Source: Sulfurospirillum sp.
GTDB lineage: Bacteria; Campylobacterota; Campylobacteria; Campylobacterales; Sulfurospirillaceae
Length of the DNA stretch: 64,000 nucleotides
Assembly (NCBI GenBank): GCA_016744795.1
Contig: JADGDR010000003.1
Location: 186,001-250,000 of the forward strand
Direction: 5' to 3'
This document shows positions 14,295 through 19,621 of the stretch, piece after piece; positions within the stretch are counted from its first letter, which is position 1; each line of letters opens with the position of its first letter. The notes below the pieces were generated by a model, which searched no databases, was not told the origin of the DNA, and worked only from the letters and a program-made list of their open reading frames with translations. Made by a program: the position numbers and the translations under genes.

Positions 14295-14352
14295 AACTTC
14301 TCCTTTTTAATATGTGTGAATAATAGACAAAATCTCCTTAAAATCAAATAAT

Positions 14353-14371
14353 AATGAAAACGATTATCATT
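14353..14371. promoter_or_regulatory. Fur-box-like operator between divergent genes
   Basis: AATGAAAACGATTATCATT matches the inverted-repeat Fur consensus AATGATAATNATTATCATT at all but two specified positions. It lies in the 144-bp gap between the minus-strand barrel/NosL-like cluster and the plus-strand peptide/277-residue/flavodoxin genes, so one site could repress both directions under iron-replete conditions. Flavodoxin being downstream fits iron regulation. Confidence 0.7.
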
Positions 14372-14438
14372 TTAATATATAATTAAGAGTTTTTATTCTA
14401 CAATTTTATTGATATTAACTATCAAGAAAGGATGCAAA

Positions 14439-14480
14439 GTGAAAAGTGATTTACTTAAGCAAGATGGTTGTACTTGCTAA
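14439..14480 (+). CDS. 13-residue Cys-containing peptide MKSDLLKQDGCTC
   Basis: Short frame GTG...TAA with AAGGA six bases before the GTG, better than the site of the next gene. The product ends in GCTC, two cysteines and a terminal Cys. Its stop codon is immediately followed by the ATG of the next gene, in the same reading frame, and that gene has no ribosome site of its own, so its translation probably depends on reading this peptide. It could be a leader peptide, a small metal-binding or modified peptide precursor, or the severed N-terminus of the following protein. Unrecognised. Confidence 0.5.
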   Translation: MKSDLLKQDGCTC

Positions 14481-15314
14481 ATGAATAAAAGACTTGAGTT
14501 TATTGGCTTTGAGTTTTTAGATGGCAGCTATAAAGAGTATCTACCATCATCAGAACAAGTTTATTTAAAAGAGCAAAAAAGAGCTCTGTTTATCTCTATG
14601 TTCAATTTTTATATGCCTAAAGAGTTAAGGTTTAACACAAAAGAGTTTAACACAAAACAGACTCTTCTTAAAATCTTTACATGTAAAATAAAATCTCTTA
14701 TACCAATTAGTTTTACAAACAAACATAAAATGGTAAAAAATTTTAATGTTGATGTAGTATCTACTAACATCATAAACAATTTTTTATCATTTTCAACTAT
14801 GGAAAAAGGTAAGTTTTTAACAAAAAACTTTATATCAAATTCAAAAGTTTTCAATAAAACACCTAAGCTTTTACTAGCAAAATGGATTGAGTTGATTTTT
14901 AAAAACAATCAATTTCGAATATTATTTGATTTAGATGATATTTTTTCAAATCTAGTTTATGAGCGTATAAAAAAGGTAAATAGGGATAAAAAGGTCACCT
15001 GCTTACAAAATGGCATATCTATATTGGGATTAAATGAAGATACCACTTCTACATTTGTCATACCTAGTTTCTCTTCTTTTGACATCAATAAAATGCACCT
15101 CAATGAACAAATTATTCTAGCAAAAGAAAAGCTACAAGAAAAAAAGCACAATCAAATATACTTTGTATATCCAAAAAGTGATGATTTTAAAAAACATATT
15201 GAACTTAAGCTACCAGAATTAGCTATGAGTGAAGATGAGTATAAAGTAAAACTAGTACCCTACTCATTCTCATTTTGTATAAAAAATATTAAAGGAAAAG
15301 AAAAATGCAAGTAA
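14481..15314 (+). CDS. Unrecognised 277-residue protein after Cys peptide
   Basis: No family recognised. Soluble, Lys/Phe-rich, no signal peptide or TM segment. Starts GFEFLDGSYKEYL; holds NNQFRILFDLDDIFSNLVYERIK in the middle and KVTCLQNGISILGL; the C-terminus carries two Cys (SFCIKNIKGKEKCK). The ATG abuts the TAA of the 13-residue peptide in the same frame. The 3' end overlaps the flavodoxin start by ten bases, so the three form one operon behind the Fur-like site. It may be an iron-starvation protein or an enzyme acting on the peptide; neither can be decided from the sequence. Confidence 0.7.
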   Translation: MNKRLEFIGFEFLDGSYKEYLPSSEQVYLKEQKRALFISMFNFYMPKELRFNTKEFNTKQTLLKIFTCKIKSLIPISFTNKHKMVKNFNVDVVSTNIINNFLSFSTMEKGKFLTKNFISNSKVFNKTPKLLLAKWIELIFKNNQFRILFDLDDIFSNLVYERIKKVNRDKKVTCLQNGISILGLNEDTTSTFVIPSFSSFDINKMHLNEQIILAKEKLQEKKHNQIYFVYPKSDDFKKHIELKLPELAMSEDEYKVKLVPYSFSFCIKNIKGKEKCK

Positions 15315-15808
15315 CAATTATATTCGGAAGTACTGGAGGAACTACAGAAGAAGTAGCACAAGCAATAGCTGAGAATTTATCGTGTGAAACACAGCTAATA
15401 GATATAGCAAATGCTTCGATTGATGATTTTAAAAACAGTGAAAATATTATATTAGGAACTTCTACTTGGGGAGATGGTGATCTTCAAGACGATTGGGAAG
15501 ATTTTTTTGAAAATCTTGACAATATAGATTTTAGTACTAAAAAAGTTGCTCTTTTTGGCTTAGGTGATCAAGACTCTTATGAAGATACATTTTTAGATGG
15601 TATGGGAACCCTTTACACTAAAGTAAAAGAAAAAGGTGCAAGCATAATTGGAGATGGAGTAGATTCAAGTGGTTTTGATTTTGAAGAGTCCACTGCCCAA
15701 GTAGATGGTTCTTTTGTAGGTCTTGCCATAGATGATGATAATCAAAGTGAACTAAGTGAAGAGAGAATCAAAGAATGGACGAAAAAAATAGCTAATTCTT
15801 TTAATTAA
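15305..15808 (+). CDS. fldA: Flavodoxin
   Basis: Long-chain flavodoxin of 167 residues, a cytoplasmic FMN electron carrier that replaces ferredoxin under iron limitation and, in Campylobacterota, accepts electrons from pyruvate oxidoreductase. The phosphate loop GSTGGTTEEVA (about residues 8-18), the TSTWGDGDLQDDWEDF isoalloxazine loop (about 55-70) and FGLGDQDSYEDTFLDG are all present. GGAAAAG lies just upstream of the ATG. Located between two Fur-like sites, as expected for an iron-responsive gene. Confidence 0.95.
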   Translation: MQVTIIFGSTGGTTEEVAQAIAENLSCETQLIDIANASIDDFKNSENIILGTSTWGDGDLQDDWEDFFENLDNIDFSTKKVALFGLGDQDSYEDTFLDGMGTLYTKVKEKGASIIGDGVDSSGFDFEESTAQVDGSFVGLAIDDDNQSELSEERIKEWTKKIANSFN

Positions 15809-15811
15809 AGT

Positions 15812-15830
15812 AACGATAGTCGTTATCATT
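15812..15830. promoter_or_regulatory. Fur-box-like operator before imelysin operon
   Basis: AACGATAGTCGTTATCATT matches the Fur consensus AATGATAATNATTATCATT at all but three specified positions and contains the perfect inverted repeat TAACGA-TAG-TCGTTA (15811-15825). It starts four bases after the flavodoxin stop codon and about 60 bases ahead of the imelysin ATG, where a promoter would be expected. Confidence 0.65.
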
Positions 15831-15891
15831 ATTAAGTAACTATTAAGTGATATTTTAATACTATTTCAATAATTTATAAAAAGGAATAGAA

Positions 15892-17241
15892 ATGAAATTA
15901 ATCACACCACTCTTTGTTAGCCTTAGTTTAGCAGCTGTTATATCATTAACAGGTTGTGCTAATCCATCTACACCAACTACACATAAGAGTTCAGTTTTAG
16001 TTACTTATGCTGATATTGCGAACCTAAATTATAGTGACGCTTTAAAGGATGCAAAAATACTTCAAAAAGAGGTTATGAACTTCACTCAAAACCCAACACT
16101 AGAAACACTAGCAATTGCAAAAGCAGCATGGATAAACTCTAGAGAATCTTATGGACAAACTGAGATTTTTAGACTATCAAACGGTCCTATTGATTCTGAA
16201 GAGGGTTGGATAGTTAAAGCGTATGGTGCTCTTGAAGGTCAGATTAATGCTTGGCCATTAGATGAAAATATGATTGACTACACTATAAATGCCAAAGGTA
16301 AAAGAACAAGTGGCAATATCATAGATAGTAAAGGTAAATTCAGTCCTGTTGGTGAAGAGAGTCATGCAGTAAATGTAGACAATATCACGGTAGACACTAT
16401 AACTGCACTAAATGAAAATGGTGGTGAAGCAAATGTAGCAACTGGTTACCATGCAATTGAATTTTTACTATGGGGACAAGACCAAGACTATAGTAACTTT
16501 ATCAAAGATGATATAACAAAAGGTGCTTTAGTTGCTGGACAACGTCCACTTAGTGACTTTACAACAGATAAAAATGCTAAAAGAAGAAAAGCTTATTTAA
16601 ATGCAAGCACAAAAAAAATCGTCGGTGATTTACAAATAGTTGCAAAAGCTTGGTCTAAAAATACTAGTTCAGATTGTTCTACCAATGCAACAGGTTGTTA
16701 TAGAGCTGCTCTTTTAGGAACGCTTACAGGTAAAGATGCTTCAAAGAATATAAAAAAAGAGACTGCTATGAAAACCATCTTTGCTGGTATGGGTGTTTTT
16801 ATCAAATCAGAACTTGCAAATGAAAGAATAGCAGTAGCTGTTTTAACTCCTAGTGAAGAAGATGAGCATAGTTGTTTTAGTGATAATACTCACAGAGATA
16901 TAGCTACAAACTATCAAGGATTTAAGAACATTCTTATGGGAACTTACAAAGGCATTGACTATGGAAAAGCTCCTATAGATGCTATGAGTAAAAAAGATGG
17001 TGATAAAATTCTTTCTCTTATCTCAAAAATTGAAGAAAAAATAGCTAGTATCAATTCACTTGCTCAAACTAGCAGACACTTTGATAGACAAATTCAACCA
17101 GATGATTCTCAATCAAAAGTTATAGTAAAACTTAAAAATGAACTAAGAAAACTAGGTGATCAAATGGTCATAATTGCAAAAGCAAATGGCATTAACCTAA
17201 CAATTGAAGAGGTAACAGACGCTGATGAAACAAAAATCTAG
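15892..17241 (+). CDS. Imelysin-family iron-regulated lipoprotein (IrpA-like)
   Basis: Lipoprotein (lipobox SLTGC near residue 22) with an imelysin domain repeated in two halves. The GxHxxE motif is intact as GYHAIEFLLWGQD (about residue 184). Family members (IrpA, EfeO M75 domain, ICMP) are iron-regulated and involved in iron uptake. Length 449 is in the range for IrpA-like proteins. A Fur-like box lies about 60 bases upstream and AAAAAGGAA precedes the ATG. First gene of a five-gene operon with a di-heme protein, a second imelysin, a hydroxylase-like protein and a peroxidase. Confidence 0.92.
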   Translation: MKLITPLFVSLSLAAVISLTGCANPSTPTTHKSSVLVTYADIANLNYSDALKDAKILQKEVMNFTQNPTLETLAIAKAAWINSRESYGQTEIFRLSNGPIDSEEGWIVKAYGALEGQINAWPLDENMIDYTINAKGKRTSGNIIDSKGKFSPVGEESHAVNVDNITVDTITALNENGGEANVATGYHAIEFLLWGQDQDYSNFIKDDITKGALVAGQRPLSDFTTDKNAKRRKAYLNASTKKIVGDLQIVAKAWSKNTSSDCSTNATGCYRAALLGTLTGKDASKNIKKETAMKTIFAGMGVFIKSELANERIAVAVLTPSEEDEHSCFSDNTHRDIATNYQGFKNILMGTYKGIDYGKAPIDAMSKKDGDKILSLISKIEEKIASINSLAQTSRHFDRQIQPDDSQSKVIVKLKNELRKLGDQMVIIAKANGINLTIEEVTDADETKI

Positions 17242-18649
17242 TAAAAACAGATTTTTAAACATCAATATAAGCCTAACAGTTATTTTAACTGTTGGGTTTT
17301 TTAGCGTTTTAGAGGCTTCAAATTTGCAAGTTTCTTTTGACAAAAAGTATACAACTAATACTCAAAATAAAACACTTTTTACAAAAAAAATCTCTGGATT
17401 AAGTGATAAAGAGTTAGATAGTTTCATACTAGGAAAAAGCTTTTTTAGAATCCCTTGGGTAGAGGCTCCAAGTGCAACAACGGCAAGAGATGGACTAGGT
17501 CCTCTTTTTGGAGCAAATACTTGTGTTACATGTCATTCAAATAATGGGATTGCTAAAAAATACAAAAAAGATGGTTCACCTGCAAGAGGTTATGTTATAA
17601 GACTTTCTATACCTTCAAATGGCAGTAAAGGACATCTAAAACAGCTTAAATACAATGGTTTTGTAGCAGAACCAACATACGGATCACAAATTAGCCTCAA
17701 TGGAAGTAAAAATGTTCCATTTGAAGCAAAAACTATCATTAGTTATGAAAATAAGTTAATTACATATCCAGATGGAGAAAAAATAACTCTAAGTAATCCG
17801 CTAAAAAGATATGAAAATAAACTATATGATTTACAATATGGAAAACTTAATCCTCAAACTGCCATATCAGATCGTATGGGACAAGCTCTAGTTGGAGTTG
17901 GTCTACTAAACAAACTAAGTGATAAACAAATACTAGCAAACCAAGATATAAATGATAGCAATGGTGATGGCATATCTGGTAAAGCAAATATAGTATATTC
18001 TCCTGAATTCAAGGATTTTAGGGTAGGTAAGTTTACATGGAAAGCCTCAGCTCCTTCAGTAAAACATCAAGTTGCAGCAGCTGCAAATAATGATATGAGT
18101 TTAACCAACCCACTTTTTACAAAAGAAAACTGCACATCAAGCCAAATAGAGTGTTTAAATGCTCCAAAAGGAGATAGCAAAAGAGCTATGTCAAAGTTCG
18201 ATTTAACACAAAAAAGACTTGATGCAATCGCATTTTATGTAAACAATCTAAAAATCCCAAAATCAACCATAACTGAGAGAAATGGAGAACTTCTATTTGA
18301 AAAAATTGGCTGTACTGGTTGTCATAAACCAGAGTTTACTCTAGCAAGTGGTTATAAAATTAAACCTTTTACAGATATGTTACTTCACGATATGGGAGAT
18401 GAGTTAAGCGATGGAAGATCCGAGTTTTTAGCAACTCCCAATGAATGGAGAACGGCCCCTCTTTGGAGTATAGGAAAATATCATATCGCACTTAGAGAAA
18501 AACCTGCTTTACTTCACGATGGACGAGCAAAAAGTGTTGAAGAAGCAATACTTTGGCATGGTGGTGAGTCATTGGACTCTAAAAAATTATTTATGAATCT
18601 AAAAAAAGAGCAAAGAGTTTCTTTAATTAGATATATAAATGAACTATAA
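17225..18649 (+). CDS. DUF1111 di-heme oxidoreductase
   Basis: Periplasmic di-heme protein of the DUF1111 (COG3488, thiol-oxidoreductase-like, MauG-related) family. N-terminal signal/TM segment at residues 13-32; heme sites CVTCH at 100-104 and CTGCH at 363-367; conserved blocks DGLGPLFGANTC, ISDRMGQALVGVGLL, LLHDMGDELSDGR and LLHDGRAKSVEEAILWHGGE. 474 residues, usual for the family. Starts 17 bases inside the imelysin gene. The imelysin-DUF1111-imelysin order is a known iron-starvation operon in other proteobacteria; substrate not established. Confidence 0.92.
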   Translation: MKQKSSKNRFLNINISLTVILTVGFFSVLEASNLQVSFDKKYTTNTQNKTLFTKKISGLSDKELDSFILGKSFFRIPWVEAPSATTARDGLGPLFGANTCVTCHSNNGIAKKYKKDGSPARGYVIRLSIPSNGSKGHLKQLKYNGFVAEPTYGSQISLNGSKNVPFEAKTIISYENKLITYPDGEKITLSNPLKRYENKLYDLQYGKLNPQTAISDRMGQALVGVGLLNKLSDKQILANQDINDSNGDGISGKANIVYSPEFKDFRVGKFTWKASAPSVKHQVAAAANNDMSLTNPLFTKENCTSSQIECLNAPKGDSKRAMSKFDLTQKRLDAIAFYVNNLKIPKSTITERNGELLFEKIGCTGCHKPEFTLASGYKIKPFTDMLLHDMGDELSDGRSEFLATPNEWRTAPLWSIGKYHIALREKPALLHDGRAKSVEEAILWHGGESLDSKKLFMNLKKEQRVSLIRYINEL

Positions 18650-18661
18650 ACTGGAGAATAT

Positions 18662-19621
18662 ATGAAAATATTACTTGGATTGCTATTAAGTATGACTTTT
18701 ATTTTTGCAAATGAAAGTCTAAACTCACTTTACGAAAATGTAATTTTAAAAGATTCTAAACAGACCATAATAGATATAAAAAAACTTACAAACTCAATAA
18801 AGAGTGATAATATTGAAACAGCAAAAAAAGATTTTGTTGCTCTTATTAAGAGTTGGAAAAGTGTTGAAGCATTTTATATCTTAGGTGATTTAGATGATGA
18901 CTTTCTTGATACTCCAAGATACCTTGATATGTACCATCAAGGCAATGAAGATATAAAAGCTCAACTTGACTTAATTATAAAAAGTGATGAGGACTTAAAA
19001 ATTGCACTTTACAAAAACTCTCACAAAACAATCAACGCTTTGGAATATATACTTTATAAAAAAGATTTGAAAAATAAAAGAGTCAAAGACATAGCCCTTA
19101 TTATCACTAAAAAAATGCAAGAAAATTTTCAAGATATCCTTGACGGTTATATAAAAGTTAAAAAAAGTTTTGTAGAAGATGAACCAAAAGCAAACTATGT
19201 TACGGTCAATAGTCTTATAGAAAACTCTTATAAACTAAATGAGTGGCGTATAGGAAACAGTGCTGGACTTAGTAAAAAGTATCTTGGCAAAGCAGATAAC
19301 AGACGAGCTGAATATTATATAAGCAAAAATTCTATTACTGCAATTGAAGCTATCATAGATACACATCTAAGAATCTTAGATACACAAAAGTACAAAAACT
19401 ATGGTACCTTAGCTAGGAGTTATGGTGCTAATAAAGCTATTGATGATGCAATAGCACATTTAAAAGATGCTAAACGTTACGCTTCACAGATAAAAAATGA
19501 TAACTTTGCTGAGGCTACTAACTTGTATAATAGTTTGAAAAAACTATTCTATATATACAATATCACTCTTATAGAGAAGTTACAAGTTACCTCAAAAATC
19601 TTAGATGCAGATGGAGATTGA
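18662..19621 (+). CDS. Second imelysin-family protein
   Basis: Periplasmic imelysin-domain protein, 319 residues with a signal peptide (to about residue 16, FIFANES). Conserved family segments include WKSVEAFYILGDLDDDFLDTPR near the start and RAEYYISKNSITAIEAIIDTHL in the second half. The His of GxHxxE is not conserved at the corresponding place (INALEYILY), so its metal site differs from that of the first imelysin. GGAGA lies seven bases before the ATG. Its product probably acts with the DUF1111 protein, as in other imelysin pairs. Confidence 0.88.
   Translation: MKILLGLLLSMTFIFANESLNSLYENVILKDSKQTIIDIKKLTNSIKSDNIETAKKDFVALIKSWKSVEAFYILGDLDDDFLDTPRYLDMYHQGNEDIKAQLDLIIKSDEDLKIALYKNSHKTINALEYILYKKDLKNKRVKDIALIITKKMQENFQDILDGYIKVKKSFVEDEPKANYVTVNSLIENSYKLNEWRIGNSAGLSKKYLGKADNRRAEYYISKNSITAIEAIIDTHLRILDTQKYKNYGTLARSYGANKAIDDAIAHLKDAKRYASQIKNDNFAEATNLYNSLKKLFYIYNITLIEKLQVTSKILDADGD

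Follow-up and report, generated by a model that had tools for sequence, protein, structure and literature searches.

Does a 13-codon open reading frame just upstream of a flavodoxin gene in Sulfurospirillum sp. encode a product that is under selection, and in what capacity would such a peptide act? In the 64,000-nucleotide stretch of DNA analysed here (the window), this frame occupies positions 14439..14480 of the forward strand, starts with GTG, not ATG, encodes MKSDLLKQDGCTC and ends at the TAA at 14478-14480; we treat it as a gene on the basis of the conserved family described below. The original prediction had placed the frame behind a good ribosome site, and this holds, as AAAGGA (14427..14432, forward strand) lies 6 nt 5' of the GTG, an assignment based on the sequence and on a layout common to homologues. 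Read directly, positions 14427-14483 are AAAGGA-TGCAAA-GTG...TGT ACT TGC TAA ATG. Also as predicted, the TAA abuts, in the identical frame, the ATG (14481-14483) of a McrC-like ORF of 277 residues (14481..15314, forward strand) that has no Shine-Dalgarno sequence of its own, and a flavodoxin gene follows: fldA of the long type (15305..15808, forward strand; NCBIfam TIGR01752, E=1.1e-55; Pfam Flavodoxin_1, 3e-29) overlaps the 3' end of the 277-aa ORF (15314) by 10 nt. Given the TAA-ATG junction and the missing ribosome site, the window's 277-aa ORF is probably translated by coupling to the peptide.

We defined the GCTC family as ORFs of 13-22 aa with a ribosome site and a C-terminal [KEQ][PQ][TSD]GCTC. 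The window peptide falls within this definition, its 13 residues finishing in KQDGCTC with a C-terminal Gly-Cys-Thr-Cys, and its genome carries the second mark of the family, namely the 277-aa family, DUF2325 and fldA together. The first homologue search (26/100 relatives) brought in a genome of the same genus (G005), whose contig matched Sulfurospirillum arcachonense DSM 9755 in a scan of the DNA of named genomes. S. arcachonense contains, in the equivalent operon, a short ORF ending NLIQQDGCTC (peptide ...KKDNLIQQDGCTC). A QDGC[ST]C-stop codon pattern occurs in 2 of 249 genomes, exactly at the window and S. arcachonense loci. Among loci of the 277-aa family, a filter requiring just two Cys close to the C-terminus of a short ORF brought up Arcobacteraceae peptides. 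Most Arcobacteraceae in which the operon occurs encode peptides of about 20 aa ending K[NK]xDLV[KE]PTGCTC beside DUF2325. The merged pattern gave 19 matches in 19 of 397 Campylobacterota genomes, all within the iron-starvation gene cluster, while the reversed control pattern gave 0 matches in the same 397. In all 17 Arcobacteraceae matches (17/17), DUF2325 starts 9-20 nt after the peptide, and most homologues keep the AAAGGA-6 nt-start layout.

A single scan of 84,980 named genomes returned 24 loci, all but one of which come from Arcobacteraceae, from S. arcachonense or from uncultured genomes where the context is equivalent. The exception is a chance match within a long antisense-type ORF of a Defluviitaleaceae genome. 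At the sensitivity of this pattern scan, the GCTC family is thus confined to Campylobacterota. The same scan spoke against a longer parent protein ending in GCTC, as it yielded only micropeptide loci and the one chance match. Of the other DGCxC-stop matches in the 397 genomes, 14 were examined and rejected; they lie within larger genes, are antisense or have no start codon, and none is a standalone gene beside this operon. Our literature searches found no GCTC peptide, in agreement with the earlier statement that no described system matches the pair: the Cys-ending peptide belongs to no described family.

The 277-aa family itself is broader and was found by profile search in 149 of the 397 Campylobacterota genomes. 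It is present in all 19 genomes with a pattern match (20/20 when the divergent member in genome G455 is counted), and within the Arcobacteraceae-like family the peptide occurs in 18 of 29 genomes with the 277-aa gene compared to 0 of 13 without it (Fisher 1e-4, a statistic inflated by the close relatedness of the genomes). It had been proposed to ask whether a short Cys-ending frame precedes each homologue of the 277-aa protein. The peptide is conserved in this gene cluster in some lineages, but the majority of lineages with the 277-aa gene have no detected peptide, and pattern searching may overlook divergent members, such that lineages scored as peptide-negative could hold altered ones. In three Arcobacteraceae loci (L033-L035) the operon is present and the peptide is cleanly missing between the Fur box and DUF2325. 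The peptide is thus accessory, and it is dispensable in lineages without it. Given its conservation elsewhere, peptide-free lineages point to this accessory status and not to a spurious ORF.

Codon comparison of 28 distinct DNA versions of the peptide gene indicates what is being conserved. None of the 28 departs from G, C, T and C, in part because the search pattern imposes these residues. At positions free of the pattern, K at -12 and L at -9 are each kept in 27/28 versions and D/N/E is kept at -10, and the conserved L is encoded by TTA, TTG, CTT, CTA and CTC. Changes between versions are mostly synonymous, with a pN/pS of 0.16 for the last 8 codons (in part pattern-imposed) and 0.37 for the first 5, and the stop is TAA throughout. 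The member in G455 (L127:2491-2565) is the only one with a displaced stop; it ends GCTCMWGK, adjoining the DUF2325 start, and shows that the thiol need not be exactly terminal. No conserved RNA structure was found, RNAalifold giving 4 pairs with no compensatory change, and Rfam returned a single match, a sub-threshold snoRNA on the opposite strand. As judged from these codon patterns, our data show purifying selection on the amino acids of the peptide, and we are highly confident that it is a real selected product.

The locus carries putative marks of iron regulation. A Fur-like box had been predicted about 70 bases upstream, and AATAATGAAAACGATTATCATTTTA (14350..14374), made up of the overlapping 19-mers AATAATGAAAACGATTATC and GAAAACGATTATCATTTTA, fits that description, with its 5' end 89 nt and its 3' end 65 nt upstream of the GTG. 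It contains the top 19-mer of the 64-kb window against the consensus GATAATGATAATCATTATC (15/19; 0.35 such matches expected by chance), and we infer that Fur binds there. Comparable Fur-like boxes precede the operon in relatives, lying just 5' of the peptide ribosome site in Arcobacteraceae. The orthologous neighbours in C. jejuni, cj1383c and cj1384c, are under strong iron and Fur repression and rank among the most iron- and Fur-repressed genes (PMC4491227, PMC3815106). A second, weaker Fur-box-like site in the window (15809..15833, two 14/19 matches, which are expected 3.75 times per 64 kb) lies 5' of an imelysin gene at 15892; the region 15809-19621 comprises this box followed by imelysin, di-haem peroxidase (DHOR) and imelysin genes.

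The position of the peptide within the operon is not constant. Most Arcobacteraceae have the order peptide-DUF2325-277aa-fldA, S. arcachonense has DUF2325-peptide-64aa-277aa-fldA, and the window has peptide-277aa-fldA with DUF2325 on another contig. At locus L146 the order is DUF2325-72aa-277aa type-peptide-terminator, the intrinsic terminator, seen at this locus only, lying about 55 nt past the peptide stop; the NMT1-like, imelysin and DHOR genes downstream of that cluster have counterparts around the window locus. In two further genomes (G415 and G155; L123 and L124) peptide-DUF2325 is located beside fur and a feoB-like gene, and 277aa-fldA is elsewhere. The peptide is therefore found in four operon positions (first, after DUF2325, directly 5' of the 277-aa gene, and last before a terminator), and this shifting order indicates that it has no fixed downstream partner. 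The DUF2325 gene of the window genome (G000:C28:24186-24446, L177) is apart from the peptide operon and has a Fur-box-like upstream sequence of its own. A second family of small proteins (63-66 aa, ...DEFL.I.H.LD...), without a Pfam match, accompanies DUF2325 in several such clusters (L004:1068-1262, L173:1982-2173, L133:2251-2451), and a structural model of DUF2325 gave no significant structural match.

The 277-aa neighbour had been called unrecognised. This is correct with respect to Pfam and NCBIfam, neither of which gave a match, and a profile of the family found none among the sequences of solved structures (PDB), but fold and profile comparison point to an apparently dead relative of McrC. 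An AlphaFold2 model built from the window and locus sequences (mean pLDDT 77.5, pTM 0.74) matches McrC of Thermococcus (Foldseek 6ut7_G, E=9.8e-7) and of E. coli (E=7e-4), after which come weaker matches to mostly nuclease-like folds. Independently of the fold match, hhalign profile-profile comparison of the 277-aa family with McrC, represented by 15 McrC proteins from Campylobacterales, gave E=6e-6 and 2.9e-8, pairing LFDLDDIF with LFDMNMLF and VYPKSDDF with LIYPYDSNF. The catalytic P-D ... D-x-K of McrC is invariant in 15/15 McrC proteins and missing from the 277-aa protein, in which the aligned positions hold NG and PSF-like residues in the window and YxT/S in relatives. The protein thus shares the fold and profile of McrC (PF10117, the McrBC nuclease subunit) but is shorter and has no adjoining McrB GTPase, its gene lying instead next to fldA, DUF2325 and others. 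On these grounds we read it as a remote, apparently catalytically dead McrC derivative. The window genome additionally encodes a genuine McrC (G000:C15:57141-58070, L193), and in genomes of genus g3 of the same family (L007-L023) fldA is preceded by a shortened homologue of about 148 aa in which the N-terminal half is missing. By synteny the 277-aa protein is of the Cj1383c type, the names being taken from the literature and gene order: the C. jejuni series cj1384c (DUF2325)-cj1383c-flavodoxin corresponds to DUF2325-277-aa family-fldA, an order also seen in L181 and other Campylobacter-like genomes. The C. jejuni cluster differs in having no micropeptide. Cj1384c is a DUF2325 protein of 104 aa with 7 Cys, is 352-fold up under bactericidal violet-blue light and resisted purification (PMC9426514).

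Taken together, we hold with moderate confidence that 14439-14480 is a real gene of a GCTC micropeptide family, part of a Fur-repressed iron-starvation module, whose product is a trans-acting dithiol. The first alternative raised in the original prediction was a leader peptide that senses Cys or iron status. In a cis-acting leader of this kind, the ribosome would slow or stall at PTGCTC-stop depending on Cys-tRNA, iron or redox conditions, thereby setting translation of the next gene. The short ORF, with conservation highest just before the stop, is what such a leader would look like, as is its place as the first gene of the operon 9-20 nt from DUF2325 in Arcobacteraceae; an operon gene follows the peptide closely at every locus except L146, and the L146 terminator could be viewed in the same light. 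However, the downstream gene varies (DUF2325, a 64-aa ORF, the 277-aa ORF, or none before the terminator), the stop is displaced in G455, non-Cys residues are kept and just two Cys codons are present. An attenuation leader has a fixed place and alternative RNA structures; the GCTC peptide has neither. There is precedent in CruR and CutF (DUF2946), Cys-motif upstream ORFs able to sense metals, which likewise are short Cys-motif ORFs in metal-related operons (PMC9426467, PMC9973294). CruR is an exported protein of 145 aa in which the CXXC and RAPP arrest motifs are 45 residues apart, whereas GCTC peptides are 13-22 aa long, have no export signal and no RAPP and occupy no fixed operon place; the window peptide, with 13 residues and a C-terminal CxC, has no Pro-rich arrest motif. 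A nascent chain of 13-21 residues is still inside the ribosome tunnel, which rules out metal sensing of the CruR/CutF type. The varied operon position, the mostly synonymous changes and the absence of a conserved RNA fold together favour action in trans over a common cis leader. We consider the leader unlikely and action in trans likely.

A second alternative is that the peptide is a precursor, for a metallophore or cofactor, that is modified after translation by its neighbour or by an enzyme encoded elsewhere. A conserved C-terminal Cys motif behind a variable N-terminal part resembles short precursor peptides, but the operon encodes no known modifying enzyme and no adjoining exporter or peptidase, and the McrC-like neighbour lacks catalytic residues. 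A single MNIO modifying enzyme (PF05114; MbnB/TglH/ChrH) of the bufferin, methanobactin or TglA type was rejected, as PF05114 is present in 7 of 19 peptide genomes and absent from the other 12, and the copy in the window genome is far from the peptide. Of the predicted pair, a small peptide together with its enzyme, the freestanding peptide is favoured by operon positions and conservation; the enzyme is not, because the neighbour is apparently dead and the Arcobacteraceae peptide is instead beside DUF2325. The chance that the peptide is a modified precursor is slim. We give a very slim chance to a third alternative, that the frame is only a coupling device loading ribosomes onto the next gene. 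The TAA-ATG junction before an ORF without a ribosome site and the short gaps elsewhere would suit such a device, but coupling by itself would not preserve an amino-acid sequence, DUF2325 of Arcobacteraceae has its own AAAGGA, and at L146 no start follows closely. Coupling in the window would be a local by-product of where the peptide lies and not a function common to the family. That the peptide is really the N-terminus of the 277-aa protein, through read-through of the stop or a nonsense mutation confined to this locus, is suggested by the shared frame and the TAA directly 5' of the ATG. Yet homologues start at the same ATG, none carries a fused extension and the peptide has a gene of its own, which in many cases does not adjoin the 277-aa gene, so that we reject this possibility.

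Returning to the trans-acting dithiol, the proposed module consists of the peptide, DUF2325 (Cj1384c type), the McrC-like pseudo-nuclease (Cj1383c type) and flavodoxin. Loss of iron would derepress the module, and the peptide would be translated, followed in the window by re-initiation on the 277-aa ORF. Acting in trans, its reduced C-x-C end may provide a small dithiol, either as ligand or as redox tail, while the cell shifts from ferredoxin to flavodoxin; candidate targets are Fe, Zn, Cu, an Fe-S intermediate, DUF2325 or the pseudo-McrC. We rate a thiol ligand or redox role a little below even. Tiny conserved ORFs within regulated operons are known, such as the 16-aa IlvX of E. coli, from which the GCTC peptide differs in sequence, in regulon and in its conserved terminal dithiol. 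More tentatively, the 13-residue dithiol peptide could be an iron-starvation cofactor working with DUF2325 and the nuclease-dead McrC derivative. Under that equally tentative proposal, the peptide would be a metal or Fe-S ligand or an electron relay, and the McrC derivative would have been recruited from restriction into flavodoxin physiology.

Should the peptide prove to be a functional product, its conserved gene would stand at the bottom of the size range of bacterial proteins, and annotation pipelines are likely to skip a gene of 13 residues. The cofactor proposal, if true, would place it among the shortest conserved bacterial gene products. Recognition of the dead McrC fold provides a structural hypothesis for Cj1383c-type proteins. 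Furthermore, a working peptide would mark an entire uncharacterised iron-starvation module, one that includes cj1383c and cj1384c of a major pathogen.
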